64,000 bases of DNA from Variovorax terrae (GTDB lineage Bacteria > Pseudomonadota > Gammaproteobacteria > Burkholderiales > Burkholderiaceae_C), in assembly GCF_022809125.1 (NCBI RefSeq), contig NZ_JALGBI010000001.1, positions 1,860,001 to 1,924,000 on the forward strand, written 5' to 3'. Below are positions 32,353 to 50,910 of this stretch, in pieces (the stretch's first letter is position 1; each line of letters begins with the position of its first letter). A model generated the notes under the pieces. It had not been told where the DNA came from. It was given only the letters and a program-made list of their open reading frames with translations, and did no database searches. Made by a program: the position numbers and the translations under genes.

Positions 32353-32368
32353 CAGGTGCTCTGCTCGG

Positions 32369-34307: not shown

Positions 34308-34463
34308 TCTTTAACCCGTCGATCCAGAGGCGACAGCCTTTGGCAGCACTTGGCTTCCAACGTTAAACGGTGCTGGGGCTGTGGTGATGAGAAGGGCAAT
34401 TGCCGTCCCTTCGAGTTAAAAACGCACACCCCGAGCCAGTCCGCAACAACCCCTCACAGCAGC
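34308..34463. other. Intergenic stretch, probably the original rng downstream sequence
   Basis: No gene seen. On the minus strand, directly next to the repeat at 34464-34475, it reads GCTGCTGTGA, which completes the codons Val-Leu-Leu-stop for a Y-D-I-V ending, as expected for the displaced end of rng. Confidence 0.5.
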
Positions 34464-34475
34464 ACGATGTCGTAC
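34464..34475. other. attL: Attachment site, left copy of the island direct repeat
   Basis: ACGATGTCGTAC is identical to 50921-50932 at the 3' end of rng. On the minus strand, the repeat plus flanking chromosome reads as codons Y-D-I-V-L-L-stop, the form expected for an uninterrupted rng end. Together the two copies bound a 16,457-bp segment carrying an integrase next to the right copy. Confidence 0.7.
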
Positions 34476-34512
34476 ATGTCTGGTTTAATGTCCTAAATTC
34501 ATTAAAAATCAA

Positions 34513-34764
34513 TCACTTGCAAATCAAGAACGGCTCGCAACACACTTCTCCAGCTACCCTTTCTTTGTGAGCTTGTGTGAAACAAGGTCGCCCCCTTCGC
34601 TGCAGCAGCTCACCCACTTGATACCGACAGAGGACTGACAGCCATCCACGATTTACCTCACCAATTGCTATCGCTGCAGAACCATCCTTGGCTATCGCGA
34701 TGTCGTCATCAGACTGAGAGTCGGCATCAAATTCTGGCCATACGGTATCTACTGATGTAGTCAT
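34513..34764 (-). CDS. Possible small hypothetical protein
   Basis: 83 residues if started at ATG 34764 (MTTSVDTVWPEFDADSQSDDD, then a more hydrophobic part). It lies between jetD and the left attachment site, same strand as jetD. No recognised family, no strong SD; included because the composition is protein-like and the region is otherwise empty. Confidence 0.3.
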   Translation of the reverse strand: MTTSVDTVWPEFDADSQSDDDIAIAKDGSAAIAIGEVNRGWLSVLCRYQVGELLQRRGRPCFTQAHKERVAGEVCCEPFLICK

Positions 34765-34945
34765 CGTTCTTAACCGGAAGGAACAAGACAAGCCGTGATA
34801 GCCCAACTGGTCAAGAGAAGGGAATCGGTATTCTTTCTTGAGTCATGATCCTGGGCAGCCGGACGTTTTGAGAGACGGAGCAACTGCTATCAAGTTTCAG
34901 TCACTGATTCGGCAGACCTACCAAACCCCGAGTCACCCTGCGGAG

Positions 34946-36142: not shown

Positions 36143-39100
36143 CGCGCACGTCCTGGGTCAGTTTCAGTCGATGAGACTCGCTGTCGTATTCGATGGGGAT
36201 GACCGCCGACTTTTTGCGGTCCTTGATGTGCACAAAGCATGCGCCGCCGATGAACGGCTCCAGCGTCATCACGGACTTCAACGGCGTCGCCACAATCATC
36301 TGAAATCCGAAGGTCTTGAAAATGTTCATGGCCATGGCCGTGAATTCCGCGTCAGCCTTGTCAAAAGCCTCATCCAGCACAACAGTGGAGTAGCGGGGAA
36401 GTGCCCTGTCCTGGCCGCCAAGCTGGTACCGAAGCGCTGCCGCCAAACACGTTGCCGCCAGTTTCTGGCGCTGACCACCGGACTTGCCGGCGCCACTGCG
36501 GTAGACCTCGACCTCCAGGTCGTCCTCGTCCAGTTCACGGGCAACGAACTCCACGTGTTGCCGCACGTCGAGCACAAAATTCCGCCAATTCTTGTCTGCG
36601 GTTTCCTGGCTCGCGAGACGCTTTACGAGGGAAGCCAAAGCTTTGAAGCGTTCCTCGGCCAAGTCGCGGTCGTTGGAGAACGAGTGGCTGAGCGATTCCT
36701 TGAGGCTCGCGCGGAACAGGCGCACATCCTCGATGGCCTTGTCGGTCGTGTCGATGACGAGGTGCGTACCTGGATTGAACGGCGCCGTCCGCAGGCTTTC
36801 ATTGACGAGTTCCATGCGCGACCGAATGGCAGAGCGCTCCTCGTCCAGCTTCGTGGTGAGCAGCGTGAGATTCTGGTCGCTCTGCTCCCGCAGAAGGCTA
36901 AAGAACCGGTCCTCGAACGCAGGCAGGTTGTCGTCCTCCAGCCGCTTGAGCTTCGCCAGATAGTCGTCGGCGCTTTCGAGCGTCGCATCAAGGCCGCCAG
37001 CAAGCGCAGGCCACACGCGGTTGAAATCCGCAAAACGCTGCACAATGGAATTGCGAAGGTCCGACAACCGACTTTCCAGTGTCCGCAGCTCCGAGTTCAG
37101 GCCGCGCTCAACCAGCGTGGTCACATGGTCAAGGCTCTCCAAGGTGACAGCCTTCTCCGTGGCCTCGTACCGGACGGCAATCTGCGCGGCGAACGCAGGC
37201 GGACGGTCCGAAGTCGGCCACAGCCGGGCAAGCTCTTCCAGCTTCCCTTTCAAACGATTGATTTCGGCAGAAATGGACTGCCCTTTGCCGTCTTCAGTGT
37301 TCTTCTTTCCGACAGCCTTGGAATGCGCATCTTCTTGCTTCCGAATGCTGTCGTTCAACGCTGCAAGGTCCGGACGTGCCTCACGCTCAGCCTTCAACCG
37401 GAGAGTCAGGTCGTTGATGCGCGTCAACAGAGACCCGACATCCACATCGTTCCAAGTCAGGTTCGACAGGTTTTGGCAGTTCAGCATCTGCACCTGTTGA
37501 GCATCTTCCTCTTTCCCAATCTTGCGAACGGTCTCTTCCAGCTCGCTGATGCGACCACCGATTTCCGCAGCCTGCTGCTTGAAGAGGGCCAGTTTTTCCT
37601 TGTTGTCGAACCCCAGGACCCACTGATTACGATCGTTGACCGAGTGGCGGTCATTCTTCTCATGCCGCATCGTGCTGTGCTTGACCTGCCCCTCCCGGGT
37701 GACCGCACGCGAAGCATTGCGGAACGCCTGCAGGGTGTCGGCGCACTCGAAGTCGAAGGAATGCTTGAGCTCCTCCCGAACCCAGTCCCCGAAACTACCC
37801 GATGCCATGTTGAGCTTGCGCACCAAGGAGTTGGGCCCGGGGGACCGCCCCGAGGTCTGGGGAATGGTACGGAAGTACACCAACCGCTCACCGATGTTTC
37901 GCTCGTTCAGGTAAGCCGATACCGCAGAGTAGTGCTTCTCGTCCACGAGGATAGAACGTGCGAAGCCACCAAGGACACGCTCGATGGCACCACGCCACGC
38001 CGTCTCCTCGGCTCGCACCTCGACCAGTTCGCCAACGAACGGCAGCTTCTCTTCGGGAATCGAGAGGTCCCGTGCCATGCGCTCCCGCAGGTCGACCAGC
38101 CGTGCCGGCAAGTTCGATTTCTGGCGTTCAAGCGCCTTGACCTCAGCGACGACCTTCTGGAACCTTTCATTTGCCTTGCGCAGTTCTTCCTTGACACCGT
38201 CCTTCCGTTCTTCAACCTCTTTCTTCAAGTCGCGCGCCTTCAACACCCGCTGCTTGGCGGCTTCGACACGCTGGACAAACCACACCACGGAATCAGGAAC
38301 AGCCCATCCCATGGCTTCGCATGCTGCTGCGGCCAGGTCGCGCTTGCCGATACGGATTGGCTTTTCAGCTTCGGCGGCCTTGATGTCATCTTCAAGCCGC
38401 ACAAGAACATCGGCCCCCATGTTGAGCTTCTGCCGCTGAAGGTCAGTCAGCTTCTGGAACTCGTTCTCGACAATGGAGGCGAGACGCAACGTTTCTTGCC
38501 TCGACCCCTCCCTGTCCACTTCGAGTTCGGCAATGCGCTCGTCGAGAAGAAGCTTGCGCCGGTGTTCTCGATATTGGTCAATGGCGGTCTGTATGGCCTG
38601 CAAGCCATTGCTCTCAAGCTTTACCCTGTCCAGTTCTCCGTGTTCATCGCGCGCCGGAACCAGCGTCTGAATTTGCTTGCGAGCAGCGACGACCTCTTGG
38701 TGCGCCTCGTTGAGCTCCCCGAATTCATTGACCAGGCTAGCGGCGATGCCGAAGGTTTCGGGTTCATCCAACATGAAGTCCCGCAAGAACACGTTGAGGT
38801 CGCCCAGGTTCTTGGCGGACTGCGTCTTGTGCAGCAAGCGCAACGCGCGCTCGTTCTCGATGCCCAGCAGCCGGCGGAAACGCTCTTGGTAGGCACTGAA
38901 CTCCGTATGCACCTTTGCATCAGGCAAATCGTGCTTGAAGCGGCGAGCATCGAATTCGTTCTTCGCGAAGAACTCCAGCTCCTGAACATCAAACTCCCGC
39001 TCAAGCGTCAGGTACACCCGCTTGGCATCACCGGGGGCGGTCGAGTTTCCCTTCACCCACAGAACTTGGGCGAGCACCACCACACGCCCCAGTTCATCAC

Positions 39101-39473
39101 GGTAGGTTTCCGCAATGGCCGACCACGTCGTGCCGCCACGCAGGTACTGCGACACATATTCGCCAGCCTCGCCAGTCTGCTGCGCCCAAGCCCCACGAAG
39201 GTAGGTCATGACGCTGCGGTCCCGGCCATTGCGCTCGGCCTCGCGCGCAGCAACGTTGAAGTCCACCCACTTCGGAGGCGTCAGAAGTGCAGCATGCGCA
39301 TCCAGGACTGTCGACTTGCCAGACCCCGAGGGGCCGACGAAGAGGTAGCCCTCTTTCGGGATGGGGAAGTCGAAGACATTCGAGAACGTCCCCCAGTTGA
39401 ACGTCTGAATCCGTGCGAGACGGAATTGGTCACTGCTGCCGCCCAGCAGTTCGGCTTGAGAAAACGGGTTCAT
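36117..39473 (-). CDS. jetC: Wadjet system SMC-like ATPase JetC
   Basis: 1118 residues, MukB/SMC-like. Walker A GPSGSGKST at residues 47-55, long coiled coils with a hinge region in the middle (Arg/Glu/Lys-rich heptads from about 250-500 and 620-960), ABC signature SGGQRQK at 998-1004, and Walker B VVLDEAF at about 1031-1037. It drives DNA loop extrusion with JetA (kleisin) and JetB (KITE). Its start overlaps the jetB stop (ATGA). Full length with no frameshift, so likely functional. Confidence 0.95.
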   Translation of the reverse strand: MNPFSQAELLGGSSDQFRLARIQTFNWGTFSNVFDFPIPKEGYLFVGPSGSGKSTVLDAHAALLTPPKWVDFNVAAREAERNGRDRSVMTYLRGAWAQQTGEAGEYVSQYLRGGTTWSAIAETYRDELGRVVVLAQVLWVKGNSTAPGDAKRVYLTLEREFDVQELEFFAKNEFDARRFKHDLPDAKVHTEFSAYQERFRRLLGIENERALRLLHKTQSAKNLGDLNVFLRDFMLDEPETFGIAASLVNEFGELNEAHQEVVAARKQIQTLVPARDEHGELDRVKLESNGLQAIQTAIDQYREHRRKLLLDERIAELEVDREGSRQETLRLASIVENEFQKLTDLQRQKLNMGADVLVRLEDDIKAAEAEKPIRIGKRDLAAAACEAMGWAVPDSVVWFVQRVEAAKQRVLKARDLKKEVEERKDGVKEELRKANERFQKVVAEVKALERQKSNLPARLVDLRERMARDLSIPEEKLPFVGELVEVRAEETAWRGAIERVLGGFARSILVDEKHYSAVSAYLNERNIGERLVYFRTIPQTSGRSPGPNSLVRKLNMASGSFGDWVREELKHSFDFECADTLQAFRNASRAVTREGQVKHSTMRHEKNDRHSVNDRNQWVLGFDNKEKLALFKQQAAEIGGRISELEETVRKIGKEEDAQQVQMLNCQNLSNLTWNDVDVGSLLTRINDLTLRLKAEREARPDLAALNDSIRKQEDAHSKAVGKKNTEDGKGQSISAEINRLKGKLEELARLWPTSDRPPAFAAQIAVRYEATEKAVTLESLDHVTTLVERGLNSELRTLESRLSDLRNSIVQRFADFNRVWPALAGGLDATLESADDYLAKLKRLEDDNLPAFEDRFFSLLREQSDQNLTLLTTKLDEERSAIRSRMELVNESLRTAPFNPGTHLVIDTTDKAIEDVRLFRASLKESLSHSFSNDRDLAEERFKALASLVKRLASQETADKNWRNFVLDVRQHVEFVARELDEDDLEVEVYRSGAGKSGGQRQKLAATCLAAALRYQLGGQDRALPRYSTVVLDEAFDKADAEFTAMAMNIFKTFGFQMIVATPLKSVMTLEPFIGGACFVHIKDRKKSAVIPIEYDSESHRLKLTQDVRDVEEITVS

Positions 39474-40177
39474 TGGGCCTCCTCCTCATCTGCAGGCTGC
39501 TCGTCGTCATCGCCATCAGGCTCCCCACTGGGACCGACTCCTCCGGGGCAGGCAGCCAAAGTGGCATACGTGCGCGTGAGCTCCTGAATTTCCTCGGCGG
39601 AGAACAGGAGCTTGAGTGTTGGTGAGACCTCGTAGCGTTCCCCCGACCCGCGGATGGACTGCAGCAGGCTCAGCTTCTTCGCCTTGTCGATCGCATTGAT
39701 GACCTGCCGTCCGAACTTGGCGTGGTCGGGGTTGTTCTCTTTTTCGAACACCGCCAGATGTTCTTGCATGTCTTCGCGCGACACAACCGCCCGCTCGCCC
39801 TGTGCATCGGCCTGCGTCAGCCGCTGCCGCAGGAAAAGCAGCAATGCGGTTTCCAGGAATGTGAGCGAAGCCTTGCGCAGCAAGATGGGGACATCCAGGT
39901 CTTCAGAAACAACTTGCCTTGTGAAGGCGACCTTCTGCTCATGGTCGATGACGACTTCAAGAAAGAGGTCATGCATGCGCGAACGGATGGCAGCCTCATC
40001 TCGCAACAGAACCGGCCAGAGCTTCGATTGACGCCGGGCGTCCACCGAGGGCCCCAGAAGGAGCTGGACCAGGACCCGCCGGGTGTCGATGGGCAGCGCC
40101 CCCGTATCTCCTTGGAAGGTTGCAGCTTCGGCAACAGGGGAGTCCGCCCCCGCGTCGTCTACAAGAGACTCACCCAT
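39470..40177 (-). CDS. jetB: Wadjet system protein JetB (DUF4194)
   Basis: 235 residues, a winged-helix KITE-like subunit. LRKASLTFLETALLLFLRQRL and VSREDMQEHLAVFEKE are family segments. The C-terminal tail is strongly acidic (GEPDGDDDEQPADEEEAQ). ATG 40177 follows the jetA stop by 4 bases; a TTG at 40198 would overlap jetA instead. Acts with JetA and JetC in the loop-extruding complex. Confidence 0.88.
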   Translation of the reverse strand: MGESLVDDAGADSPVAEAATFQGDTGALPIDTRRVLVQLLLGPSVDARRQSKLWPVLLRDEAAIRSRMHDLFLEVVIDHEQKVAFTRQVVSEDLDVPILLRKASLTFLETALLLFLRQRLTQADAQGERAVVSREDMQEHLAVFEKENNPDHAKFGRQVINAIDKAKKLSLLQSIRGSGERYEVSPTLKLLFSAEEIQELTRTYATLAACPGGVGPSGEPDGDDDEQPADEEEAQ

Positions 40178-40181
40178 CGTG

Positions 40182-41645
40182 TCAGTCAACGAATTCAAGA
40201 TAGCGCTCCCTCATGAAATAGATGGTGGGAACCTTGGCGCGGCGCTGCACCTCGTCGTCCCCTTCCCAGACCACAAGCTCTGTCCCGTCAGTCACTTCCC
40301 CATGCTTGGAGCCCAGGGCGACATAGCCGACAACACTTCCCAAACCCTGCTCCGCGGGGTACTCAGCAAGCACCTGCGCAATGGAAACCTGAGATTGCCG
40401 CTCCAAGATGGCTCGCACGTGGGCCTTGAGCGTTCGAAAGTCGATTTCCGATTGCCGAACCAGCTCGCTCACCGTTTCGAGGTCCAACTCGGATGGCTCC
40501 GCGGCCTGCATTGATGAGTCAGTCACACGCTCAGCCGGGTCATACAGCGCCCATTGAGACACCGACCTGATGCGGCTGCTGGACTGCATGAGCTCGAAGC
40601 CCACTTGCTCGTTTGGCCGGACCTCGTCCTTGGCGCCCAGCGCAGCCTGCGTCGCCGCCTTGAGGAGGCCATGCAGCCGGCGGTGCTCGAGGAATTCCCG
40701 GCTCTGGACAAAGCTCTTGAGGCTACGCGCGAAATGCTGCAGCACATCGTGCACCCCTCGTCCTTCATTCAACAAGGCCCCCGTCAGCCCCAACAAAAAT
40801 TTGCGCTCCTGCGACTCCAGCTGTCGTGCGAAGGGACGACCAGTCACCTCATCCAACGACTCGCGCAGCGTCGCGGCCTGCTCGCTATCTGTCAGCAACC
40901 GCCAGAAAGCATGGAAAGTTCGGCCGGCATCGCTTTCACCGATGAGGTCAACCCCGGCAAAGAGCTGCTCAAGCACATCGCCGCGGCTCCCTTCGTTCTC
41001 CATCAAGCTCTGACGAAGACCTCGGTTCAACCTCTCGAATTCATCACGAACGCTTCGAAAGTCGGCTGCGAGTTCCTGCGCCAAGGCGATGACTTCGCGC
41101 GCCCGCTCCACAGCACGGTCTGGGGCAAGCGCTTTGACCCCACCACGTTCGACCTCAGCAATCGCCCGGTCAATGCGGTCGCGCTCGGCGTGCAGAGCAG
41201 CCAGACGCGATTGCGGATTGGTGTTGGTCTCCTCCGCCAGTCGTGACAGCTGGTGAATCACAACGGATAGCCGACTCTCTGTCGCGGTGGTACGAGGCTT
41301 CAAAAGCCCTGTCACAAAGCGCAGTGCCGTCAGCGCGTCCACGGACAGCTCGTACTCCTCCTCGGACGCGCCGGCAGGAAATCGACGCGTCAACCACCCC
41401 TGGCTGAGCCACTCTGCGACATACGCCTGCGGCGTTTGCGGAAGCTCCTCCCCTACAGCGCGTAGCGCCTCGATATCCCGGGTCAAGCGCTCATGAAGCA
41501 CTGAACTTGGAAGCGTTTGCTCGGACTCCACAAACAAGGACTGCAGCAGGGCAATCACAACAGGCCCCTTGTTGGCGGCCAGCAGGCGCCATAGGGGTTG
41601 CTCGCGAAGATTGCGGAGGGCGGCCGCACCGCGAAGGGCTTTCAT
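40182..41645 (-). CDS. jetA: Wadjet system protein JetA (DUF3375, kleisin-like)
   Basis: 487 residues of the DUF3375 family, first gene of jetABCD. Motifs include LRNLREQPLWRLLAANKGP and a C-terminal VPTIYFMRERYLEFVD. It is the kleisin-like subunit bridging the JetC heads. The DUF3375 plus DUF4194 pair identifies a type I Wadjet system. Its promoter must lie in the 147-bp gap shared with the divergent WYL regulator. Confidence 0.92.
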   Translation of the reverse strand: MKALRGAAALRNLREQPLWRLLAANKGPVVIALLQSLFVESEQTLPSSVLHERLTRDIEALRAVGEELPQTPQAYVAEWLSQGWLTRRFPAGASEEEYELSVDALTALRFVTGLLKPRTTATESRLSVVIHQLSRLAEETNTNPQSRLAALHAERDRIDRAIAEVERGGVKALAPDRAVERAREVIALAQELAADFRSVRDEFERLNRGLRQSLMENEGSRGDVLEQLFAGVDLIGESDAGRTFHAFWRLLTDSEQAATLRESLDEVTGRPFARQLESQERKFLLGLTGALLNEGRGVHDVLQHFARSLKSFVQSREFLEHRRLHGLLKAATQAALGAKDEVRPNEQVGFELMQSSSRIRSVSQWALYDPAERVTDSSMQAAEPSELDLETVSELVRQSEIDFRTLKAHVRAILERQSQVSIAQVLAEYPAEQGLGSVVGYVALGSKHGEVTDGTELVVWEGDDEVQRRAKVPTIYFMRERYLEFVD

Positions 41646-41704
41646 GTCCCCTGCCCGACAACTTCAAACCTGCCGACTTCTCCCACAGAGACCTCCAAGT
41701 TTGC

Positions 41705-41716
41705 TGACCAAGGTCA
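41705..41716. promoter_or_regulatory. Candidate operator between jetA and the WYL regulator
   Basis: TGACC-AA-GGTCA is a short inverted repeat near the middle of the divergent 147-bp region, a natural place for a WYL-regulator site. The region next to it (41725-41765) is AT-rich and could hold both promoters. Confidence 0.35.
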
Positions 41717-41792
41717 CCAGCATACATCTATTTACTATTTGCGTCTATTTTTTATTCCCATCTAATTTCTGTACCCGTGAGACAATCGCGGA

Positions 41793-42707
41793 ATGACACA
41801 GCCAGACGCCAAGCCGCCAACCAAAGCGGAACAAGCCCCAGGTCGCTCCTCTGGTCGGTGGAGCCAAGACCGTCGCTTGGAATTCATAGACTTCCGCCTG
41901 CGCTGGGACGGTCGACTCAACCGCAGCGACCTCATGGAGTTCTTCGGCATCTCCGTCCCTCAAGCGTCACTGGACATCGCCAAGTACACCAGCCTGGCGC
42001 CAGGCAACCTCGTGTATGACCGCAGTTCTCGGGTCTACACCGCTTCCTCTGGGTTCCAGCCGCTCTATTCCTCCAGCGATGCAGGTCGTTTCCTGAACGA
42101 GCTGCTTGAAAACAGTGCAGGACTGCAGGCGAAAGAAAGCAGCTTTTTGGCTTGGGCCCCTCCGGTGGCAACGGTACCGACACCCAGTCGGAATTTTCGG
42201 ACCGACGTTCTGCTCGCACTATTGCGCGCCATCAGAGAAGGAGCAGCCATCAGCGTGCAATACCAGTCCCTGACACGTCCGCAGCCCACCGTGCGCACGA
42301 TTGCGCCACATGCCTTGGCCCATGACGGGTTTCGCTGGCACGCACGCGCGTTCTGTCATACGCGCAAGGAATTTCGCGACTTCGTCATCGCACGCATGCT
42401 GGAAGTCACTGGAACCGAGCCTGGTCTAGCCGACCCGGCGGAAGACTCGGAATGGCACACCATCGTCCCGTTGATTTTGATTCCTCACCCCCGACTGTCC
42501 GAATCCCACAAGCGCGCGATTGAGCTTGACTTCGGCATGGAAGATGGGCGGGTGGAGTTCCGTTGCCGGCAAGCATTTCTCTTCTATGCGATGCGCCACC
42601 TTCGGCTTGAACTGGCTGAATCCGCCAAGCCCGAAGCACAACAAATCGCGCTCAGGAACCGTGCGGAAGTCGAGGCCTTGATGCCAGGATTCGTCCGGCA
42701 GACATAG
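41793..42707 (+). CDS. WYL-domain transcriptional regulator (CapW/BrxR-like)
   Basis: 304 residues. N-terminal winged HTH (RRLEFIDFRLRWDGRLNRSDLMEFFGIS), a WYL domain in the middle (AAISVQYQSLTRP, then IAPHALAHDGFRWHARAFC), and a C-terminal WCX-like part. This architecture matches the CapW/BrxR repressors that control CBASS, BREX and other defence operons. Divergent from jetA, so it likely represses the Wadjet genes and itself until ligand binding. The exact ligand is unknown. Confidence 0.88.
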   Translation: MTQPDAKPPTKAEQAPGRSSGRWSQDRRLEFIDFRLRWDGRLNRSDLMEFFGISVPQASLDIAKYTSLAPGNLVYDRSSRVYTASSGFQPLYSSSDAGRFLNELLENSAGLQAKESSFLAWAPPVATVPTPSRNFRTDVLLALLRAIREGAAISVQYQSLTRPQPTVRTIAPHALAHDGFRWHARAFCHTRKEFRDFVIARMLEVTGTEPGLADPAEDSEWHTIVPLILIPHPRLSESHKRAIELDFGMEDGRVEFRCRQAFLFYAMRHLRLELAESAKPEAQQIALRNRAEVEALMPGFVRQT

Positions 42708-42787
42708 CGATTTCCCAGCCTTTACCACTTCCAGAAACCATTGGATACATGTATGGTGGAGCTCTATACAGCCGGGAAGAGCCCACC

Positions 42788-42886
42788 ATGTCCGAGGGAA
42801 AGAACGTCTCCGTCAGTTTTCGCGTATCCATGCGCTTCAAACCGTTGCTGGAAGTCACTTGCCCTCTTCAGGTATACCAATGCTGA
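42788..42886 (+). pseudogene. Ribbon-helix-helix antitoxin-like remnant
   Basis: A 32-codon ORF that begins MSEGKNVSVSFRVSMRFKPLLEV, resembling the N-terminal beta strand and first helix of Arc/MetJ-type regulators, then loses similarity and stops. A palindrome ATACATGTAT lies about 38 bp upstream, as expected for an RHH operator. It appears truncated by a deletion or recombination within the island. The following 128 bp hold nothing else that I recognise. Confidence 0.4.
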
Positions 42887-43014
42887 GTTAGCAAGCCCAA
42901 GGTTTTGGAGATTGCAAGATCTCCTGTGATTACCGGTCGTCGCCAGCGCACTGGCTATGACCGGCAAATTTGTGTTGTGCGCCATGGCTAACGACTGCCG
43001 CTTGATCAAAGGGA

Positions 43015-43641
43015 TCAGGCAATGGTCTCGGGCAATTTCTTTGCGAGACGCCTCAAGCTTGGACATGACACGACGTTGGCCGCGCCGATTTGTTCGACGA
43101 CCCAATCGAACTGCTGTGCCCAAACCTGCATTCTCGCCAGACGGAGCGCGTCGAGGACGGCTGTGGAGAGCCCTTCTTGTCCTAAGGCGAGCCTCACAGG
43201 GGTATGCGCGAGGATATCGATAGTGGTTGCTATTCTTAGCGAACCAAAACGCTCAGCGGCAACGCGAGTGGCCTTCCTTTCGTCAATAGCCGCAATCCGT
43301 CCATTGCGATGAGCGAAAGCCAGTGTGGCAGCCTCTCCGTCACCCAGGGAGTCCGACGCCGAACCAGACACGATGCCGATGAAGCTTTCGAGTGCCTCCT
43401 CGTCCAACTCTACAACCTCAAGGCGCCCGCGCTCAATGAGATCAAAAAGCTTCTTCGATTCTGGGCGGCCGTTCTCCGCACCACCCTTGATTTCGACGAC
43501 CACGTTTTCCGTGACGCAGGAAGCCCCGGGCAGAGCCTGCAGAATTGTGTCCACATGTCCCGTCGCCAGCAGGTTGATGATGACGCTGGCATCTAGAACG
43601 ATTGGGGGTGATTGCTCAACTAGGCAGCTTGAAAAGGTCAT
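43015..43641 (-). CDS. PIN-domain nuclease-like protein
   Basis: 208 residues. Acidic PIN residues are in place: IVLDASVIINLL (Asp17), a Glu near residue 50, LGDGEAATLAFA (Asp101/Glu103) and RIAAIDERKATR (Asp120). PIN domains are metal-dependent RNases or DNases, often toxins. Its ATG lies 26 bp inside the 3' end of the XRE-ImmA/IrrE gene, so translation is coupled. It is the last gene of the four-gene operon. The C-terminal extension of about 75 residues is not assigned. Confidence 0.85.
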   Translation of the reverse strand: MTFSSCLVEQSPPIVLDASVIINLLATGHVDTILQALPGASCVTENVVVEIKGGAENGRPESKKLFDLIERGRLEVVELDEEALESFIGIVSGSASDSLGDGEAATLAFAHRNGRIAAIDERKATRVAAERFGSLRIATTIDILAHTPVRLALGQEGLSTAVLDALRLARMQVWAQQFDWVVEQIGAANVVSCPSLRRLAKKLPETIA

Positions 43642-44785
43642 CTACCTCATCCTCTTGCGCCTCATCAAGCAGTTCTCGGACCATCTCACGGTTCAGCTTG
43701 AGCAAGTCCGACATCTGTCCCTCACTAATTAGCTCCTTTTTCCAAGCCTCAATTGCCAAAAGATAAAGTCTTGATGATTGAGGTGATTGGACAGCAGGAG
43801 TTTCGTCTGCGTCACTTCCAAGCACCTGACGAACTTGATCATCGGTGATACCGCCGTTATCAACGAACCAATCCCACGTTCCCTTCTTCGTTAGTCCTAG
43901 GTCTTCAAGTCTCATCACCATGGCCTGGCGCGATACGCCGAAGAAATTGGCTAGCAAGATGATATGCCGGCGCGTGAGGTGCGTGGACCCAATGGTCACC
44001 TCCCTGAACTTCTCCATGACCGCCCTCGCTGGCGTCAGGAACGCTCGTGCAAATGAATTTGCATACCGCTCCTCACGAGAGTTTTCATACACATCATCCT
44101 GGTAAATTTCAGGCTTACGGCGAGTTGCAATGAAATGACCCAGCTCATGGCTTCCCGTTTGGGCCCGCCGGTCTTTTCGATGACTAGCATTGATGAGCAT
44201 GCAAGCCCCAACTGCATCATCATAAGCAAATAGTCCGGAAACCTTGGCGTCGAGTTTTCGCGTGTAAACCCGGATGCCGAGTTGTAATTCAAGGATTGCA
44301 TAAAGGTCGTGAATCGGCCCTTCCCCCAACCCCAACCAGTTACGCAAGCTCAGTGCGTCTTGCTCCGCTTGTTGGCGCACATCTCCAGGAAGTATGTTCT
44401 TTTCAGCGGGGTAGTTGTAGGTCTTCTGAATACCCAGAATGTTCTCGAGTTCGACCTCGGCTTTGACCAAGTCACTGAGCATTTTTGCGGCTTGGTCGAT
44501 TCCTGCATCGCCGGTTTCTGCGAACGTGCGAAAGCGAGGGACAAGGTCCACATGAACGGACTCGCGACGCAACATGGAATTGACTGACACGCCGTATGAC
44601 CTGCATAGGTCTTGTAGTTCCTTGAGCTTGGCTGCGCGTTGGCCCTTCTCGATGGCTACCAGCGTCGTTCGAGCAATGCCAACAGCCTTTGCTGCGACGT
44701 CCTGGGTAAGGTTTGCGGTTTCACGCGCGCTCCTAAGTCGTTCGCCGAGCTCAAGTTGGCTCAGTTCATAGTTGTCTTTGGTCAT
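43616..44785 (-). CDS. XRE regulator fused to ImmA/IrrE metallopeptidase
   Basis: 389 residues. Residues 15-70 are an XRE HTH (LGERLRSARETANLTQDVAA, then IARTTLVAIEKGQ). Residues about 140-300 are an ImmA/IrrE (COG2856) zinc peptidase with SHELGHFIATR (HELGH 213-217) and EERYANSFARAFLTP holding the third ligand Glu. In relatives the peptidase cleaves a repressor or partner on DNA damage or other cues. Here the HTH is on the same chain, so self-cleavage or autoregulation at the operon promoter is plausible. Overlaps QueC-like upstream and PIN downstream. Confidence 0.9.
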   Translation of the reverse strand: MTKDNYELSQLELGERLRSARETANLTQDVAAKAVGIARTTLVAIEKGQRAAKLKELQDLCRSYGVSVNSMLRRESVHVDLVPRFRTFAETGDAGIDQAAKMLSDLVKAEVELENILGIQKTYNYPAEKNILPGDVRQQAEQDALSLRNWLGLGEGPIHDLYAILELQLGIRVYTRKLDAKVSGLFAYDDAVGACMLINASHRKDRRAQTGSHELGHFIATRRKPEIYQDDVYENSREERYANSFARAFLTPARAVMEKFREVTIGSTHLTRRHIILLANFFGVSRQAMVMRLEDLGLTKKGTWDWFVDNGGITDDQVRQVLGSDADETPAVQSPQSSRLYLLAIEAWKKELISEGQMSDLLKLNREMVRELLDEAQEDEVDDLFKLPS

Positions 44786-46149
44786 GATGATTCATCTATC
44801 CATTGCCTCACGAAGGACCTCGGCCCGAGGTCCTTCGTGAACGCCGACCACTCCTTGGCGTGTTGCAGCAGAAGCCTATCCAGCTTCTGTGAAACATCTT
44901 GAGGGTCCTGCCCTAAGGAACGAGCCAGCTCGTAAGTCTTCAAGCGCTTGATGAGCTGGTACTGAGAGGAGCCCGGAAGCGCTGCAAGGTGCTCGAAGTG
45001 GAGAACTCCGGCAATCGAGTATTCATGCAAGGCCTTCGTGAACTGAGAGAACTGCTTAGCAGCACCTTCCTTCCACGTTTCAGCACTCAACGATTCCCAC
45101 ACATAGACGTCCGGGGACTCAACAAGGCCTGCCGCATGCACACTCAGGCGACGGAGTATGCACGCTGCGCAGACCCCACACTGCCTTCTGGCCCGTCCAA
45201 CGGAGACCTGTCGTGAGTTTTGCCAGCATGACCTGGTCTTCTGCCATTTAGCTCCAGCGTCACAGCTCTCGACGAACTCCCGCAGGGTTTCTCCCTTGGT
45301 CGCCCACAGGCGCGGAAACTGAAACTTGACACGATAGTTCAAGAGCGCAAAAAAGAAGCGCTCCATGTGCGAAGTGAAGGCCGGGTGGTTGCGATAGTCC
45401 TCGTAACCATGACCAACGGGCAAAAACACAGGAGCCAAGGCACCTTGCCCACTTTCCGGAACGATAGCGGCCGGAGCTTCAATCAGGTAAGCCGCAACGG
45501 CAGACACCACGCTGAACTTGAAGCCACGACTGCGCGCACTGGACTCACCGTTTTTCTTGTTTAGCTTTACGTCATAAGGAACTGCCTTGAAAGGCATCTC
45601 TCTTCGCTCAATCCTCGAGATGTCGTGCTGCTTGCTGCCGACACGAACCCGGACTAGGCGTTTTCCTAACCTGTTGCCTTCTAAAGCCGCAACTGCCTGT
45701 GAGTCCATACCATCGCTGTACGCGATTACAGCTTCTGCATCTGCAGGAAACGTCATTCGCTCTTGAGCAGGACGGGGCGCTGGCGCTTTTCGCGCGCGAA
45801 ACTCGAGGTGCCAGTCATCACCGGTCAGAAGATTCAATGCCTCGGTCAACGCTCTGCCAACGGACGCCTCCTTCCATCGATAGGGTTCATGAACGGGAAT
45901 GTGCAATTTGAATCGACGACCCCAATTCATGGAGCTACGCACAAGAGTACGGTCACAGAATTCCACCGCGGCGGCCAGAAGCAGCAAGTCATAAACCAAT
46001 GGCTGCCATCTACGCGACGAAAAGGACTCGAGAGCCCCTATGTCAAAGGTGATGTTGTTGTTGATCCGGCAAGGTTCCGCGCCTCGGCGGCAGCGCCCGT
46101 TCGGCTCTACAACGTCGACAATGAGTTCTTTTAGGGCAAGCATATTCAT
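44782..46149 (-). CDS. QueC-like PP-loop enzyme (defence-type, long form)
   Basis: 455 residues, about twice canonical QueC. An unassigned N-terminal domain (1-130) precedes an N-type ATP-pyrophosphatase core: AYSDGMDSQA (PP-loop, residues 143-152), RGFKFSVVSAVAAY, PESGQGA, and a four-Cys zinc site C308, C324, C327, C330 (QCGVCAAC) spaced as in QueC. QueC makes preQ0 by ATP-dependent amide and nitrile formation. QueC-like enzymes in Qat and type IV CBASS systems are reported to act on a protein partner rather than in queuosine synthesis. No other queuosine genes are nearby. Start overlaps the upstream ORF (ATGA); the 3' end contains a 33-bp perfect inverted repeat. Confidence 0.8.
   Translation of the reverse strand: MNMLALKELIVDVVEPNGRCRRGAEPCRINNNITFDIGALESFSSRRWQPLVYDLLLLAAAVEFCDRTLVRSSMNWGRRFKLHIPVHEPYRWKEASVGRALTEALNLLTGDDWHLEFRARKAPAPRPAQERMTFPADAEAVIAYSDGMDSQAVAALEGNRLGKRLVRVRVGSKQHDISRIERREMPFKAVPYDVKLNKKNGESSARSRGFKFSVVSAVAAYLIEAPAAIVPESGQGALAPVFLPVGHGYEDYRNHPAFTSHMERFFFALLNYRVKFQFPRLWATKGETLREFVESCDAGAKWQKTRSCWQNSRQVSVGRARRQCGVCAACILRRLSVHAAGLVESPDVYVWESLSAETWKEGAAKQFSQFTKALHEYSIAGVLHFEHLAALPGSSQYQLIKRLKTYELARSLGQDPQDVSQKLDRLLLQHAKEWSAFTKDLGPRSFVRQWIDESS
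44808..44840. repeat. 33-bp perfect inverted repeat in the 3' end of the QueC-like gene
   Basis: Arms TCACGAAGGACCTCGG and CCGAGGTCCTTCGTGA (16 bp each) with a 1-nt centre. It is fully coding (residues around FTKDLGPRSFV) and ends 22 nt upstream of the XRE gene start codon. No T-run follows, so it is not a simple terminator. It could shape the mRNA between the two genes or be a protein-binding site. Confidence 0.8.
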
Positions 46150-46718
46150 GCTATCTGCACTCCATCATCGAGCCCGCTCTTACGTTTACGCGATTGAGAG
46201 ATTGCTGACCGGGCATCTATGAGCAGTGTGCCAAGGCTGCTCTCGGAAAAGCTAACAACGGCGCTTTTAATCCGGCTGGCCACGTTATTTGCTCTCTTTA
46301 CCGTGGATTTGCGGAGATAGTGCTCCTCTACCGCCTTTGCGTTGGCCAACCCTCGCATCTTGGCGGCAAGACCGATAGCGTCATAGAACGCCGGTAGTTC
46401 AAGCCGGCCCTCGGCTACGAGTACCTCGCTACAGGACACCGCGTTTTGTCCAAATACGGACCCACCAGCCAGAGCGCGCGCATCGTTCAGCTGCTGCAAA
46501 GCGATTTCCGGCGAGCCCAATGAATTGTCACTGCAGCTGAAGATGGACTTCAGCATGTTAAGCAACTTCCAAGAGACCTCGTTGATGAAGTCGCTCGCCA
46601 AGGCTGTAGCGGCCGCTTGCGCGACTTCAACATTGGCGTAAGCCTGGTTGTCGCCGACCTCGGCCAGCTTCTTCCATTGCTTCCTCAGGTCCAAACTTCT
46701 GTGCGGTCCGTCACTCAT
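46146..46718 (-). CDS. Unknown protein, first gene of the QueC-like/ImmA/PIN operon
   Basis: 190 residues, mostly predicted helical, no family recognised. The start is secure: GGAGG lies 8 nt before the ATG, and a near-consensus promoter lies just upstream. Features: VEVAQAAATALASDF, a central Cys-containing segment (IFSCSDNSLG), a basic stretch (SISQSRKRKSG-like near the C-terminus) and no signal or membrane segment. Its position directly before a QueC-like gene parallels QatB before QatC in Qat systems, so it may be the protein substrate. That is inference. Confidence 0.6.
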   Translation of the reverse strand: MSDGPHRSLDLRKQWKKLAEVGDNQAYANVEVAQAAATALASDFINEVSWKLLNMLKSIFSCSDNSLGSPEIALQQLNDARALAGGSVFGQNAVSCSEVLVAEGRLELPAFYDAIGLAAKMRGLANAKAVEEHYLRKSTVKRANNVASRIKSAVVSFSESSLGTLLIDARSAISQSRKRKSGLDDGVQIA

Positions 46719-46731
46719 TGGATGCCTCCAT

Positions 46732-46768
46732 TTGTCAGATTTTATTTTATTTTTTCTGACAATGTCAA
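46732..46768 (-). promoter_or_regulatory. Promoter and palindromic operators of the four-gene operon
   Basis: Minus strand: -35 TTGACA (46763-46768), 18-bp spacer, -10 TAAAAT (46739-46744). Two symmetric elements overlap it: TGACAATGTCA (46757-46767) on the -35, and arms TTGTCAGA (46732-46739) and TCTGACAA (46755-46762) spanning the -10. This is the layout of an autoregulated XRE operon. Confidence 0.65.
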
Positions 46769-47189
46769 ATCCTCACTGAGGTGACATGGCGGGGAGACAA
46801 GTGTGGTTCGCACAAAGGCCATCACCATGCCGAGGTCGTGGTGGACCTGATCAGTCGCCAAGGGCTGCGGATCGGCAGGGAAGCTGCCGGGAGGACGATG
46901 CACTGCTTTCAACCTGGCGCCAGCGGCCATAGGACGGATCAAGTACGACTGTGGTGGTAGCGATCAACGTCGAGATCGACCGCCTGCTCTTCTCGGACGC
47001 GTTGGTCGAACTCCCGGGGAGCTTCAACGTCAGGTTTCGGCAGCAGTTGCCCTTCCACGCCCCCAATCCCACCGGCAGCAATCAACCTGAGGGCTAAGTG
47101 CGCGCGCGGTAGCCACTTCGGCAGCGTTGGTTGTTGATCGATCCAGCAATCCTGCCACCGTTGAGCAGCGAGGCGCTCGGGCCCAACCT
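46769..47189. other. Unassigned stretch between the operon promoter and hipA
   Basis: About 420 bp with no gene I can defend. Short coding-like segments occur on the plus strand (around 46799-46900, and around 46945-47095 ending at a TAA) but without a full ORF or a known motif. This may be decayed cargo from an earlier insertion. Confidence 0.35.
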
Positions 47190-48551
47190 TCAGAAGAGAT
47201 CGTCGCTGAACCGAGGGATCTCCATCACCTGTCCCAACAGAAAATCCGCCCTGGCCACAACGTAGTCCGCCAGAGCGCGAACAAAGGGCCGCTCCGCCTC
47301 CACGTACACGGGATCTTGGGCCTGCGCCCTCGCCTCCTCCCGCGCCCACTCGCAGAGCTGCTTCAGTTCGCGCGCAAACGTTCGCCGGGGGAATCCCAGT
47401 CGCTCGCAGAAGTCAGCCAGCGCGAACGACTTCACGGCCGGCAGCACGAACTCATCGCCGAACGCCATCGCCAGTTCCTGATCGATGTGGCGGGCGTCGT
47501 ACACGGCCACGCTGACCAGGTCGTAGAACGGTGCCACTGCCAAGGCATCGCCCCGTCCGAAGAAGGAGATGTTCTTGCCATGCGCATCGCTGTTGCCCAG
47601 CAGCAGCGTGGTGATTGCCCACAGAGCCATCTGCCGGATGCCGATGGCTGCATTCGACAGATGCGGTCGCAGCGTGGCCAAGGCATCGAAGCTGGCCCCG
47701 TCGCGGATGTGCCGAACGTCCTCTGCGTTGCCCAGTGGACGCTCGTACTTGTGCGATACGGGGAGGTTCAGCGCATGGCAGCCGTCGATGACGTGCACTC
47801 TCCGCACATCCCCGCCGTCACGCACCCGGTCGAAGCGCTCGACGCACAGGACCGGCGCGGGCACGCGCAGGATCTCCACCTCGGCCGCCCAGTTTTCCTT
47901 CAAGCGCCGCTGGCCGAGCCGGTTGATGAGCTGCATGCAGAAATGCTCGTTGGCCACCATGCAGGGCAGCTTGTCGTTCAACGGCTCGGGCTTGAGGATG
48001 TGCGTCGAAGAGAGCGAGCCATCCGCTAGGAACAAGGCTTCTCCTTCGCGCAGCACCAGCAGCTTGTCCTGGTATCCCGCTACCGACATGCGTACCTTGT
48101 CGTCCCATATCGCGAACGGAATCCTGTTGCGGTCATCGATGCGCTGCTGCAACTCGGCAAGCGCCACGGGCCGCCGCTGCGCCTCTTGCGCCCGGGGCTG
48201 CTGCCCTGCGGGCAACAAACTCAGGGCGCCCGCCGTCTCGCGGCCCAGCACCCGGATCAGGCCGAAGAGGTTGCTTTTCTGAACGTGGGTGAAACTGGAG
48301 ACCACGTCCAGCGCCCGCCCTTCGGGCAACAGGTTGTCGATGAAGCGCCGCACGGCCACCGCAGATACTTCGCCGTCGAGAGGAATATGTGGCGACAGTT
48401 GGAATCGGTGTGCACGCTGGCGCCAAGGTGCGCTGTACACGAAGCTGAATTGATCCAGTTCTGGATCGAACGCGAGCCGCCCGACCAAGTCGGTGCCGAA
48501 GAACACGTCCAGTGCGAGATCCAGGCCCTGGGCAGGGAACGCACTGCTCAT
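47190..48551 (-). CDS. hipA: HipA-family Ser/Thr kinase toxin
   Basis: 453 residues, usual length. N-terminal subdomain, then MSVAGYQDKLLV (Ser156 near the position autophosphorylated in E. coli HipA), STHILKPEP (ATP Lys), CVERFDR, GNSDAHGKNISF (catalytic Asp322) and APFYDLVS (metal Asp). E. coli HipA phosphorylates GltX and induces persistence. All key residues are kept, so the kinase should be active. It starts 4 bp inside the hipB stop, standard for hipBA. Confidence 0.92.
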   Translation of the reverse strand: MSSAFPAQGLDLALDVFFGTDLVGRLAFDPELDQFSFVYSAPWRQRAHRFQLSPHIPLDGEVSAVAVRRFIDNLLPEGRALDVVSSFTHVQKSNLFGLIRVLGRETAGALSLLPAGQQPRAQEAQRRPVALAELQQRIDDRNRIPFAIWDDKVRMSVAGYQDKLLVLREGEALFLADGSLSSTHILKPEPLNDKLPCMVANEHFCMQLINRLGQRRLKENWAAEVEILRVPAPVLCVERFDRVRDGGDVRRVHVIDGCHALNLPVSHKYERPLGNAEDVRHIRDGASFDALATLRPHLSNAAIGIRQMALWAITTLLLGNSDAHGKNISFFGRGDALAVAPFYDLVSVAVYDARHIDQELAMAFGDEFVLPAVKSFALADFCERLGFPRRTFARELKQLCEWAREEARAQAQDPVYVEAERPFVRALADYVVARADFLLGQVMEIPRFSDDLF

Positions 48552-48841
48552 TCGGACTCCTGCTGCTGCGCCAAGTCCTTGAGCTTCAGGGCCTGTTCCC
48601 TGGAAACGACCAACACCTCCAGCCCAAGTCCGTCCAGGACCTTGAACAGGCGATCGGTGGTGATCGACTTCCCGTTTTCCAAGCGCGACAGCACATCGGC
48701 CGAGACGCCGCAGAACGCGGCTGCATCGTCGATGCGCATGCGGGCCTGCGCCCGCGCGTTGCGTACGGCCGCACCCAGCCCTTCAAGGCTTTCAACCCGG
48801 GGATCGCTGGCGTGATGTGTAGAGGGAAGACGCCGTGCCAT
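48548..48841 (-). CDS. hipB: HipB-family XRE antitoxin
   Basis: 97 residues. HTH: LGAAVRNARAQARMRIDDAAAFCGVSADVLSRLENGK, followed by TTDRLFKVLDGLGLEV, the typical HipB dimer strand region. It neutralises HipA and represses the operon by binding operators upstream. ATG 48841 is chosen; a TTG two codons earlier is in frame. Three repeated operator-like sites lie just upstream. Confidence 0.9.
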   Translation of the reverse strand: MARRLPSTHHASDPRVESLEGLGAAVRNARAQARMRIDDAAAFCGVSADVLSRLENGKSITTDRLFKVLDGLGLEVLVVSREQALKLKDLAQQQESE

Positions 48842-48853
48842 GTTCAACCATAA

Positions 48854-48966
48854 TTCCGGAATGACGAAACTATAGTTAATAACCAGGGATTTGTCGAGAT
48901 TATTCCGAAATCACGGAACTATTAGAGAATCCATGGAGGAATGCCAATTATTCCGTCATTCCGAAA
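48854..48966. promoter_or_regulatory. Three phased HipB-type operators (TTCCG-N6-CGRAA)
   Basis: Sites at 48854-48869, 48903-48918 and 48951-48966 share TTCCG-N6-CG(A/G)AA; the middle one is a perfect inverted repeat. Centres are 49 and 48 bp apart, which suits binding and bending by several HipB dimers. AT-rich promoter sequence lies between sites 1 and 2. Confidence 0.7.
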
Positions 48967-49030
48967 CAACGCAAATAAGCCCCCTCGTGGGTCGCAAGCT
49001 GAGACCGAGACATCGCGGCCCCGATAGAGT

Positions 49031-49460
49031 TTACGAAGGCCGTTGCCTGGCAGGCCGGGCAGAGACGCCAGGCGGCTGCGCAGAGTGGGCCACACGCGCA
49101 CGTGCAGGTCTACGCGCGTGATTGCGCTGGAGCTCATCAGCATTTCTCGTATCACTGGCAGCCTGTGTGCGCGGCGTCGCACGCACACGCTTGTACGACC
49201 CGCCGCTCTGCGACGCCGAGCTCGCACCACCCTGGGCCTCAATCCAGTGGCGAACATCATCGACCCGCCAAGCGGTCACGCCAAAAAACAGTTTGACCGG
49301 CGCAGGGAAGGCCCCGGACGCGACATGACGCCACAGTGTCGACTTCGAGACGGGAACCAAGGCCAGGACTTGCGGCATGCGCAAAAAAGCCGGTCAAAGA
49401 TCCGTCAGGGGCCACGATGCCAGTGGCATCGATGGAATTGAGAGAAGGGAGTTGAGACAT
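49031..49460 (-). pseudogene. AlpA-like excisionase/regulator, frameshifted at a T6 run
   Basis: The downstream frame (ATG 49378 to 49031) encodes MPQVLALVPVSKSTLWRHVA and AWRVDDVRHWIEAQ, a classic AlpA HTH. The upstream frame starting at ATG 49460 encodes MSQLPSLNSIDATG and ends ..GSLTGFF. One fewer T in the six-base run (A6 at 49383-49388 on plus) would join them as GFLRMPQVLALVP. The short form may still be made from ATG 49378 or TTG 49384. AlpA proteins control integrase expression and excision of genomic islands. Confidence 0.6.
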
Positions 49461-49510
49461 CCGGAGATTTTCTCAGCGCGGTCGCCACTGGCAGTCGTTG
49501 TGCCCCTTGT

Positions 49511-50752
49511 CTATGAAACCACCTCAGGCTCCACGCTCGGGGCGCTCTTGGCTCCAGCTTCACACGCCTCCAGGAAGGTCGCCCAGGTCAGCAACGCCTG
49601 CCGACGTTCCGCAAAGTAGTTGTGCTGGTCGTAGATGCCTTCAACGCCCGTCAGCTTGTGGTTCAAGCACATCTCGGAAGTATCCCTTGGCACACCCAGC
49701 GTGCGCATGTGGGACTTCATCGTGCTGCGCAGGTCGTGGGGCGTGAAGCGGCGAGTTGGCGGGTGGTACTGGTTGATCCAGTAGTCGATCGATTCGTGGA
49801 TGGTGTCCTCGCCGACGTGCATGTCTCCCCCGTTTCGCTGAGCACGGCTGCGTATCCTCGCGGGCAAGACATAGGCGGATCGATAAGCATAGGCACGCAG
49901 CTCTTTGAACCACCGAACGACGATCGGTGCCAGTGGGATGTCCATGGCGGCGCCGGTCTTGCTCGCCGGAATGTGCCAACGGGCGTCGTCAAGGTGCACG
50001 TCCTGCCACTTGGCCATGTACAGTTCGCCCCCTCGCACGCCGGTGCCCAACAGGACCCGAATGGCCAGCGCGTTGGGACGGCGCATCTCGGCGTTCAACA
50101 ACAGATGCAGTTCCCCACGGGTGAGCATCAAACGCTTGCGGATCGGCGGCCTCGGTCCCAACAGGGCCGAAAGCATGATCCCGACGCAGGGGTTCACGTT
50201 GATCAGCCGCTTGCCACAAGCATGCGTAAACAGGCACTTGGTCGTGACGAGCAGCAGGTTTGACTCTCCCCATGTCAGCGCAGCGTCTTCAATCAAGGAA
50301 ACGACGTCCCCCGGCTCGACCTCGCGCACTCCGAGCGAACCCAGCCTGTGCTCGACCCGCTTGAGATGCCGCGTGTAGCAGACCTGCGTGCTCTTGGCGA
50401 GCGTCACGAGCTTCTTCTGCTTGTAGTCTTGGATCAAGGTACGGACGGTCATGTCCTTGACGGCCGTGGCCTTTGCCTTGACCTTTTCCGCCGCGGGGTT
50501 GGCCCCCTTGAGCACATCGGCTCGCTTGATCGCGGCAGTCGTCCGCGCCTCCGACAGGCCGATGTCAGGATAGCGTCCCAGCGTCAGTTCGTAGCGGCGC
50601 CCACCGTGGCGGTATCGAAGGATCCAAGTCGCGTATCCATTGGCCGAGACGGTAAAAGTCAGGCCGCCGCCATCGCTCTTTGCCAGAGGCTGCGCCTCCT
50701 TCGTCCAATGCCTCAGTTGCAGGTCTGAGAGCAAACCGTTCTTGATCGCCAT
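49511..50752 (-). CDS. Tyrosine-type site-specific integrase (P4-like)
   Basis: 413 residues. N-terminal DUF4102-like arm-binding domain (LTFTVSANGYATWILRYRHGGRR), then the catalytic domain with TGVRGGELYMAKW (first Arg), FTPHDLRSTMKSH (His and second Arg), a weaker second His region (CLNHKL), and nucleophile Tyr in GIYDQHNYFAERRQALL. The gene starts about 170 bp from the right attachment repeat in the rng end. It would integrate and excise the 16.5-kb island. Promoter-proximal direct repeats lie just upstream. Confidence 0.92.
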   Translation of the reverse strand: MAIKNGLLSDLQLRHWTKEAQPLAKSDGGGLTFTVSANGYATWILRYRHGGRRYELTLGRYPDIGLSEARTTAAIKRADVLKGANPAAEKVKAKATAVKDMTVRTLIQDYKQKKLVTLAKSTQVCYTRHLKRVEHRLGSLGVREVEPGDVVSLIEDAALTWGESNLLLVTTKCLFTHACGKRLINVNPCVGIMLSALLGPRPPIRKRLMLTRGELHLLLNAEMRRPNALAIRVLLGTGVRGGELYMAKWQDVHLDDARWHIPASKTGAAMDIPLAPIVVRWFKELRAYAYRSAYVLPARIRSRAQRNGGDMHVGEDTIHESIDYWINQYHPPTRRFTPHDLRSTMKSHMRTLGVPRDTSEMCLNHKLTGVEGIYDQHNYFAERRQALLTWATFLEACEAGAKSAPSVEPEVVS

Positions 50753-50771
50753 GTGTTTCTCCTTGTTGAGC

Positions 50772-50793
50772 TAGCTACCCAGGTAGCTACCCA
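50772..50793. repeat. Tandem TAGCTACCCA direct repeats upstream of the integrase
   Basis: TAGCTACCCA occurs at 50772-50781 and 50784-50793, a 12-bp period, and the junction contains the palindrome GGTAGCTACC. It may be an integrase arm site or an AlpA-type regulator site. Confidence 0.45.
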
Positions 50794-50910
50794 ATCCTGC
50801 AGCACACGGATGGGACTTCAAGACACGCGGCGATGCTCTCCTGACGAAATTCCCTGCTACGACAACCACTTACGCGTGGCGTTTGGGACTACTTGGGGTG
50901 CCCTGAAACC

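Follow-up and report, generated by a model that had tools for sequence, protein, structure and literature searches.

A conserved four-gene operon joining a QatC-like enzyme to an XRE-ImmA/IrrE protease in Variovorax terrae resembles an undescribed immune system

A four-gene operon in Variovorax terrae

We have examined a compact operon in a 64,000-nucleotide (nt) stretch of Variovorax terrae DNA, which we call the window, and which an earlier note, made from the sequence alone, had singled out as a candidate defence locus. All four genes lie on the minus strand and, as that note had claimed, each overlaps the next. The gene at 46146..46718 encodes a protein of 190 amino acids (aa), B190, the putative substrate of the enzyme encoded next; its modification would be likely to take place on the N-terminal tail, MSDGPHRSL (46692-46718). 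A 4-nt ATGA overlap (46146-46149) joins the B190 gene to that for the enzyme, QLC (44782..46149), a QatC-like member of the QueC family of 455 aa, and a further 4-nt ATGA overlap (44782-44785) leads into the gene for XRE-M78 (43616..44785), a 389-aa helix-turn-helix (HTH) repressor fused to an ImmA/IrrE zinc protease. The last gene (43015..43641), for a PIN-like nuclease of 208 aa, overlaps its predecessor by 26 nt (43616-43641).

The promoter-operator occupies 46732..46768 on the same strand, upstream of B190, where TTGACATTGTCAGA (46755-46768) and the half-site TCTGACA (46733-46739) form an inverted repeat, in agreement with the earlier description of this promoter as rich in operator sequence. 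The repeat, TTGTCAGA-N15-TCTGACAA, stops 13 nt ahead of the B190 ATG, and its TTGACA may double as a -35 element, TAAAAT lying 18 nt further on (promoter assigned by eye). One operator stands ahead of all four genes.

The four genes occur together

Searching the genome collection with a QLC profile built from 21 sequences yielded 209 relatives, and we retained 80 loci (L009-L088); these include near-copies (several from Pseudomonas), and some are metagenome-assembled genomes (MAGs), whose phylum may be wrong through mis-binning. Far from meeting only rarely, the four families proposed to form one system were found together when the neighbourhoods were searched with profiles of the four proteins: the order B190, QLC, XRE-M78, PIN, on one strand, was observed in 78/80 loci, counting L069, whose PIN match is a stretch of 94 aa only (18 bits). 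At the other two loci (L016 and L033) the contig ends before the unit is complete. With the first possible QLC start, the B190-QLC overlap is 4 nt long in 62/80 loci and 1 nt in 12/80.

These loci were found through QLC, and the unbiased check on co-occurrence is a survey of XRE-M78 in 398 sampled Pseudomonadota genomes, with no more than 4 candidates scored in each. Full-length QLC was observed in 4/398 genomes (own included), and the XRE-M78 subfamily (expect value (E) <=1e-30) in those same 4, adjoining QLC each time. By this survey the protease and PIN genes appear not to be an independent pair residing elsewhere. The four-gene unit is rare, but its halves are not separable in these data, and it is near certain that the four genes act together.

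Of 149 genomes sampled as relatives, a set that includes the own one, only 6 had a QLC match, so the unit is mostly missing from close relatives; the 6 comprise the own genome, that of the divergent unit L145, three with qatABCD-type matches and one further genome. By record titles, carriers outside Pseudomonadota include Acidobacteria, Caldilineaceae, Nitrospirales, Geomonas, Candidatus Entotheonella, Candidatus Binatia and a Planctomycetales MAG. The same gene order appears, by annotation, on four annotated plasmid records, in three of which QLC shares just 37-38% identity with the window protein, and a fifth, unannotated plasmid record has all four genes by profile. Some copies of the unit are on plasmids typed as conjugative. 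Two loci have a gene of the unit split into two open reading frames (ORFs): that for XRE-M78 at L065:1983-3218 and that for QLC at L092:6010-7369, on a Mesorhizobium huakuii plasmid.

The operator is conserved along with the genes. Among 78 scorable upstream sequences (77/80 loci and the window), TTGACAWTGTCA was exact in 59, and 73 had it with no more than one mismatch, a tolerance at which it was found in 1/1560 shuffled stretches; a second half-site lies 18-20 nt downstream of it in 72/78, and in 62/78 it begins 47-52 nt before the ATG. Within the 4.93-Mb genome, TTGACAWTGTCAGA occurs once, at the B190 promoter. It is a natural inference that the HTH domain of XRE-M78 autoregulates the operon. 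The most divergent B190 relative (L145:6525-7079; 14.9 bits) begins MRDD and still has TTGACATTGTCAG upstream.

The QueC-like enzyme and the tail of B190

QLC has the features that had been ascribed to it: the PP-loop SDGMDS (45700-45717, minus), the four-Cys zinc site (C308, C324, C327 and C330) and about twice the canonical length. It matched a PADLOC QatC-like model with 114.9 bits and the NCBIfam QatC equivalog with 130.5 bits (cut-off 280), a level shared by five other members of its family (113.8-140.8 bits); comparison QatC proteins scored 384-547 bits in three of the four scanned and 256 in the fourth (L114). In a tree, QLC is parted from 11 QatC with 100/100 support, and its predicted fold is the QatC fold with both extensions. 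Its match to the QueC model TIGR00364 is 16.5 bits, against a cut-off of 150.3, and by this measure QLC appears not to be a standard preQ0 synthase. A Pfam scan of 4 neighbouring proteins detected neither QueD nor QueE; a single canonical QueC is, however, encoded at another place in the host genome (C2:351532-352203; PF06508, 227 bits), so that the earlier statement that no other queuosine genes are present is valid at most locally and fails for the genome as a whole.

In the alignment of the 80 loci and the window (81 rows), the putative nucleobase pair Y249/D251 (45397-45405, minus) is kept almost throughout, Y249 in 80/81 rows and D251 in 81/81. The second residue of the PP-loop is Asp, Glu or Asn in 80/81 rows, versus the canonical Gly.

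The B190 tail is nearly invariant as well. S2-D3-G4-P5 was observed in 80/81 rows, the remaining row, probably L064 with a short ORF, being without that stretch; an MSDGP start was seen in 104/120 database homologues, among the matches listed, and the distant members L091, L092, L093 and L148 begin MTDGP or MSDGP. An AlphaFold2 model of B190 is predicted to be all-helical, with a confidence score (pLDDT) of 87.3 that drops to ~50 over the first 10 residues. No PADLOC or NCBIfam family was matched by B190, and its single Pfam match was below cut-off (E 0.021). QatB begins MGTS in 11/11 operons (in one after shifting the annotated start), and its N-terminal Gly has been reported to be necessary (PMC13279940). 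A flexible, conserved N-terminus encoded beside a QueC-family gene is thus a trait that the operon has in common with qatABCD and with type IV CBASS (cyclic oligonucleotide-based antiphage signalling system), with Ser instead of Gly.

Tail and active site could be compared in 87 pairs: Ser or Thr at position 2 goes with Tyr in 83 and with His in 1, Arg2 goes with Ala in 2, and one row is tail-less. This covariation would be expected if the QLC active site reads the tail, although the two Arg2 pairs are few. In L090 (Roseomonas) B190 starts MRDGIWKGLPL, and of its 18 database matches (query included) 13 start MRDG, 4 have the motif internally (one as VRDG) and 1 is truncated.

The protease and the PIN-like protein

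XRE-M78 matched Peptidase_M78 (59.3 bits) and HTH_3 (48.9 bits) in Pfam, and H213, E214 and H217 of its HELGH motif (44135-44149, minus) are present in 81/81 rows. Its C-terminus holds a UPF0175-like stretch (43655-43765, minus; 17.5 bits, under the cut-off of 27.9), and UPF0175 was matched at E<=0.01 in the C-terminus of 10/17 members; in the accessible part of PMC2701414, the UPF0175-like family COG2886 is listed with PIN toxins. Among the best 25 PADLOC matches listed, 14 were RmrA models, the top one at 85 bits, from a set without curated cut-offs.

The PIN-like protein falls just below the cut-off of PF01850 (22.8 bits against 23.6). The candidate defence family PDC-S70 of PADLOC was matched in 18/18 members, and four acidic residues are kept in all or nearly all of 79 rows, D17 in 79, E50 in 78, D101 in 78 and D120 in 76. 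Its putative identity as a PIN-like nuclease rests on PDC-S70 together with these four acids.

Genomic surroundings

The operon was said to lie between Wadjet and hipBA in a mobile island, and we observed such an arrangement. JetA of Wadjet is at 40182-41645 (677.7 bits; the scan of Wadjet genes covered JetA), followed by a WYL regulator at 41793-42707; on the other side are a HipA/HTH, hipBA-like pair (47190-48847) and an integrase (49511-50752). In 2-kb bins the G+C content is 0.54-0.61 from 32 to 50 kb and 0.63-0.72 outside, and window positions 32000-51000 form a low-G+C island holding all of these genes and the operon.

We compared the 7 nearest ORFs (110-700 aa) in 20/80 loci with those of 20 canonical queC regions of the same genomes. 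The 140 operon neighbours matched 264 PADLOC models (E<=1e-10) versus 29 for the 140 queC neighbours, these counts being of models, which are redundant, and not of proteins. Among the first 25 matches listed for the operon are AbiEii, AbiEi, PDC-M01, AriA, HEC-06 and RTasHel, to which Pfam adds GmrSD, BrxL and Fic; among the first 25 for the queC controls, which also have defence models nearby, are RtcR, mads, DpdF and PsyrT. Neighbours of plasmid-borne copies include Shedu and AbiEii. Flanking families recur in at most 12/80 loci, and the commonest resembles an integrase by eye. The setting of the operon is defence-rich.

Relation to described systems

In the ORFs of the 80 loci, profiles of QatA, QatB and QatD made from 11 operons had no match (E<=1e-5), and QLC differs from QatC in several respects even though the predicted QatC fold, with both extensions, is common to the two. 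It forms a separate clade; its PP-loop reads S[DEN]G, whereas that of QatC reads SGG; and where QatC has a STRTTHP-type stretch (a Thr/Thr pair, with STRT before HP), QLC has GYxDYR, as judged from an alignment and not from a solved structure. Its partner is unrelated to QatB by sequence, with an MSDGP tail in place of MGTS.

The pair Cap9-CdnD of type IV CBASS is alike in that, in the accessible parts of PMC11996544 and PMC13279940, a QueC-family enzyme with Tyr/Asp nucleobase residues acts beside a partner with a conserved N-terminus. However, Cap9 is about 185 aa long (accessible part of PMC13329287) and QLC 455 aa, position 2 of the partner is Gly in CBASS and Ser in B190, and neither a CD-NTase nor Cap10 was matched among the four proteins in the PADLOC, Pfam and NCBIfam tables. 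Canonical QueC is about half the length of QLC, which is far below the QueC family cut-off.

The output half has its own precedents. RosmerTA likewise has an XRE-ImmA/IrrE protein (RmrA) beside a toxin-like gene, and the accessible part of PMC10440598 describes ImmA-type antitoxins in phage defence and notes PIN partners for the ImmA zone; but RosmerTA is described as a toxin-antitoxin pair (RmrA with a diverse RmrT), whereas XRE-M78 and PIN are here joined to B190 and QLC. In 2009, Xre-COG2856 genes accompanied by PIN or RelE genes were predicted to form a three-component toxin-antitoxin system under LexA-like control, in which an HTH domain is fused to a Zn protease, shares an operon with PIN and might act as a LexA-like autoprotease (accessible part of PMC2701414); neither QueC nor COG0603 appears in the main text of that paper, and the protease and PIN genes are here part of the four-gene unit. 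Since the XRE-M78/PIN half is of a kind already predicted then, the novelty lies in the linkage of this half to a new partner protein, B190, and to a QatC-like enzyme.

QueC-family clusters have been mapped (PMC13329287), and in the accessible part of that paper no ImmA or PIN partner is named. In literature on QatB/QatC, deazaguanylation, and QueC with ImmA, PIN or toxin-antitoxin genes, where coverage of subscription journals and preprints was thin, we recognised no described unit among the matches listed, and the earlier opinion that no named system has this combination stands to that extent. The operon is a new, robust combination of known parts: we class it with the QueC-based immune systems, as a variant, and not as qatABCD, CBASS or RosmerTA.

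Hosts with and without a queuosine pathway

QueC was searched in the genomes of 50/80 loci, and QueE and QueD in 20 of those 50. Canonical QueC was over cut-off in 40/50 host genomes versus 172/200 sampled Pseudomonadota, so the hosts are not enriched for QueC. The 10 apparently QueC-less hosts are those of L032, L046, L048, L057, L072, L073, L075, L078, L081 and L087; in them QLC keeps the Asp in 10/10 and the Tyr in 9/10, and B190 has SDGP in 10/10. In 10 QueC-bearing comparison genomes, QueE was over cut-off in 7, a 46-bit candidate in 1 and not found in 2. Two hosts, L054 (G174) and L084 (G191), have QueC, only background matches to three QueE models and QueD at 31-33 bits, perhaps reflecting another type of QueE.

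Discussion

Four genes that keep company across several phyla under a switch of their own have the look of an immune system not yet described, built around an enzyme recruited from the synthesis of a tRNA base, and defence is quite likely the function of the operon. What the data directly support is that the four genes form a conserved unit with its own operator, that the three enzymes have intact motifs, that QLC is predicted to adopt the QatC fold, that the B190 tail hardly varies and that the setting is defence-rich. The best explanation of the whole, which we put forward tentatively, is an immune operon that is self-contained, spreads horizontally and couples two halves. In one half, QLC, with its QatC fold, presumably binds B190, whose Met-free flexible tail S2-D3-G4-P5 would enter the active site; QLC would then activate a carboxylated 7-deazaguanine-like molecule with ATP and join it to the N-terminus of B190, a reaction modelled on that of Cap9 acting on the CD-NTase in type IV CBASS. 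By this analogy QLC probably modifies B190, if with some reserve, and it is by analogy only, and for the N-terminus, that the earlier suggestion of such a modification is favoured.

In the other half, XRE-M78 would repress the operon through the private operator and restrain the PIN-like nuclease, probably through its UPF0175-like C-terminus. Infection would switch the B190-QLC complex between states with modified and unmodified B190 and so activate the protease, which would cut its own repressor or antitoxin part, freeing the nuclease and derepressing the operon; growth arrest or cell death would follow before phage maturation. We offer this gating mechanism as a proposal, and consider protease-gated release of a nuclease to be nearly evenly balanced between being right and wrong. 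A more specific version, in which a 7-deazaguanine-type base on the N-terminal Ser of B190 is the signal upon which the HTH-protease frees a PIN ribonuclease, the base possibly being provided only by phage in hosts without the pathway, is doubtful.

Several observations weigh against the proposal. No phage record or viral contig carrying the unit was found. B190 showed no homology to QatB (hhalign probability 0.3), a fold search with its model gave no match, and a Cap10-like reader is not among the four proteins. The PIN assignment is weak, with a Pfam match in 2/18 family members and, among PDB profiles, a VapC at E 1.2 as the best match. In the divergent MRDG clade the initiator Met should remain, which speaks against a simple Met-removed acceptor there, and in both Arg2 members examined with their QLC (L090 and L145) the Tyr is replaced by Ala, L145 having lost the Asp as well. 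Finally, in the 10 QueC-less hosts no protein scored above 26 bits against the three QueE models, a level also reached by other radical-SAM proteins, so that 7-carboxy-7-deazaguanine (CDG), the substrate of Cap9, is hardly host-made there; in those hosts the substrate is either not host-made CDG or has an external source, such as a phage that encodes the pathway itself. It is mainly these hosts that call for caution on deazaguanylation as such.

Other explanations divide the operon differently. B190 and QLC could be the antiviral core, like QatBC, with XRE-M78 and PIN as a built-in guard that kills the cell when a phage blocks or degrades the core, without signalling via modification. QatB and QatC alone do protect against some phages (PMC13279940), Xre-COG2856/PIN pairs were predicted as toxin-antitoxin units of their own (accessible part of PMC2701414), and a single operator ahead of all four genes would suit such a guard; but an exchangeable toxin-antitoxin unit would bring other toxins, whereas the same PIN family is found in 78/78 loci reaching that far, and the XRE-M78 subfamily was never apart from QLC in the 398 genomes, at up to 4 candidates per genome. 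We regard this explanation as unlikely. It is distinctly improbable that the operon is an ordinary XRE-protease/PIN addiction module that has captured a QatC-like pair and stabilises a mobile island, with no antiviral role: the mobile setting agrees with it (an integrase-like flank in 12/80 loci by eye, an integrase near the unit in the window, conjugative plasmids), yet capture leaves unexplained the near-invariant B190 tail, the intact QLC active site and the fixed order across phyla, and equally the surplus of defence neighbours.

The identity of the substrate and of the enzyme may also be argued. QLC might use a carboxylate other than CDG (guanine-related, or a phage-derived 7-deazaguanine), so that the system would report a foreign 7-deazaguanine pathway or a phage-made metabolic change. 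The 10/50 hosts with neither QueC over cut-off nor recognisable QueE, which nevertheless keep the Tyr/Asp pair, point this way, as does the Asp, Glu or Asn of the PP-loop where Gly would be canonical; but any such ligand is hypothetical, and QueE types beyond the three models would escape, as the 2/10 QueC-bearing genomes without QueE, and the one at 46 bits, illustrate. We think this rather improbable. That QLC is simply a standard preQ0 synthase or a QatC ortholog, and its association with the other genes trivial, is scarcely credible: many public records do annotate it as '7-cyano-7-deazaguanine synthase', but its scores are far below both family cut-offs, the tree separates it from QatC, and a canonical QueC is already in the genome.

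On the more specific version of the proposal, which we hold doubtful, nucleobase-protein conjugation would gate a toxin-antitoxin module. Protein deazaguanylation was discovered only very recently, and the QatC reaction and its route to defence have been stated as open questions (PMC13279940). The operon is a further QueC-based setting, in which the base-reading Tyr/Asp, lost in QatC, is kept beside a near-invariant short candidate acceptor and recognisable output machinery, so that the role of such a modification can be tested with four small genes. It suggests that QueC-type enzymes serve as a modular front end for several immune effectors.

Two QueC-like proteins stood apart from the unit. 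A QatC-like ORF of 681 aa at L149:5218-7263 scored 198 bits to QatC and 182 to QLC, with no match to the QatB, B190, XRE-M78 or PIN profiles in 14 kb. At L154:5250-6266 a 338-aa QueC-like protein scored 83.8 bits to the QLC profile and 22.4 to QatC; the other three partners were unmatched in the 6.4 kb examined, and the gene adjoins an uncharacterised ORF of 858 aa.

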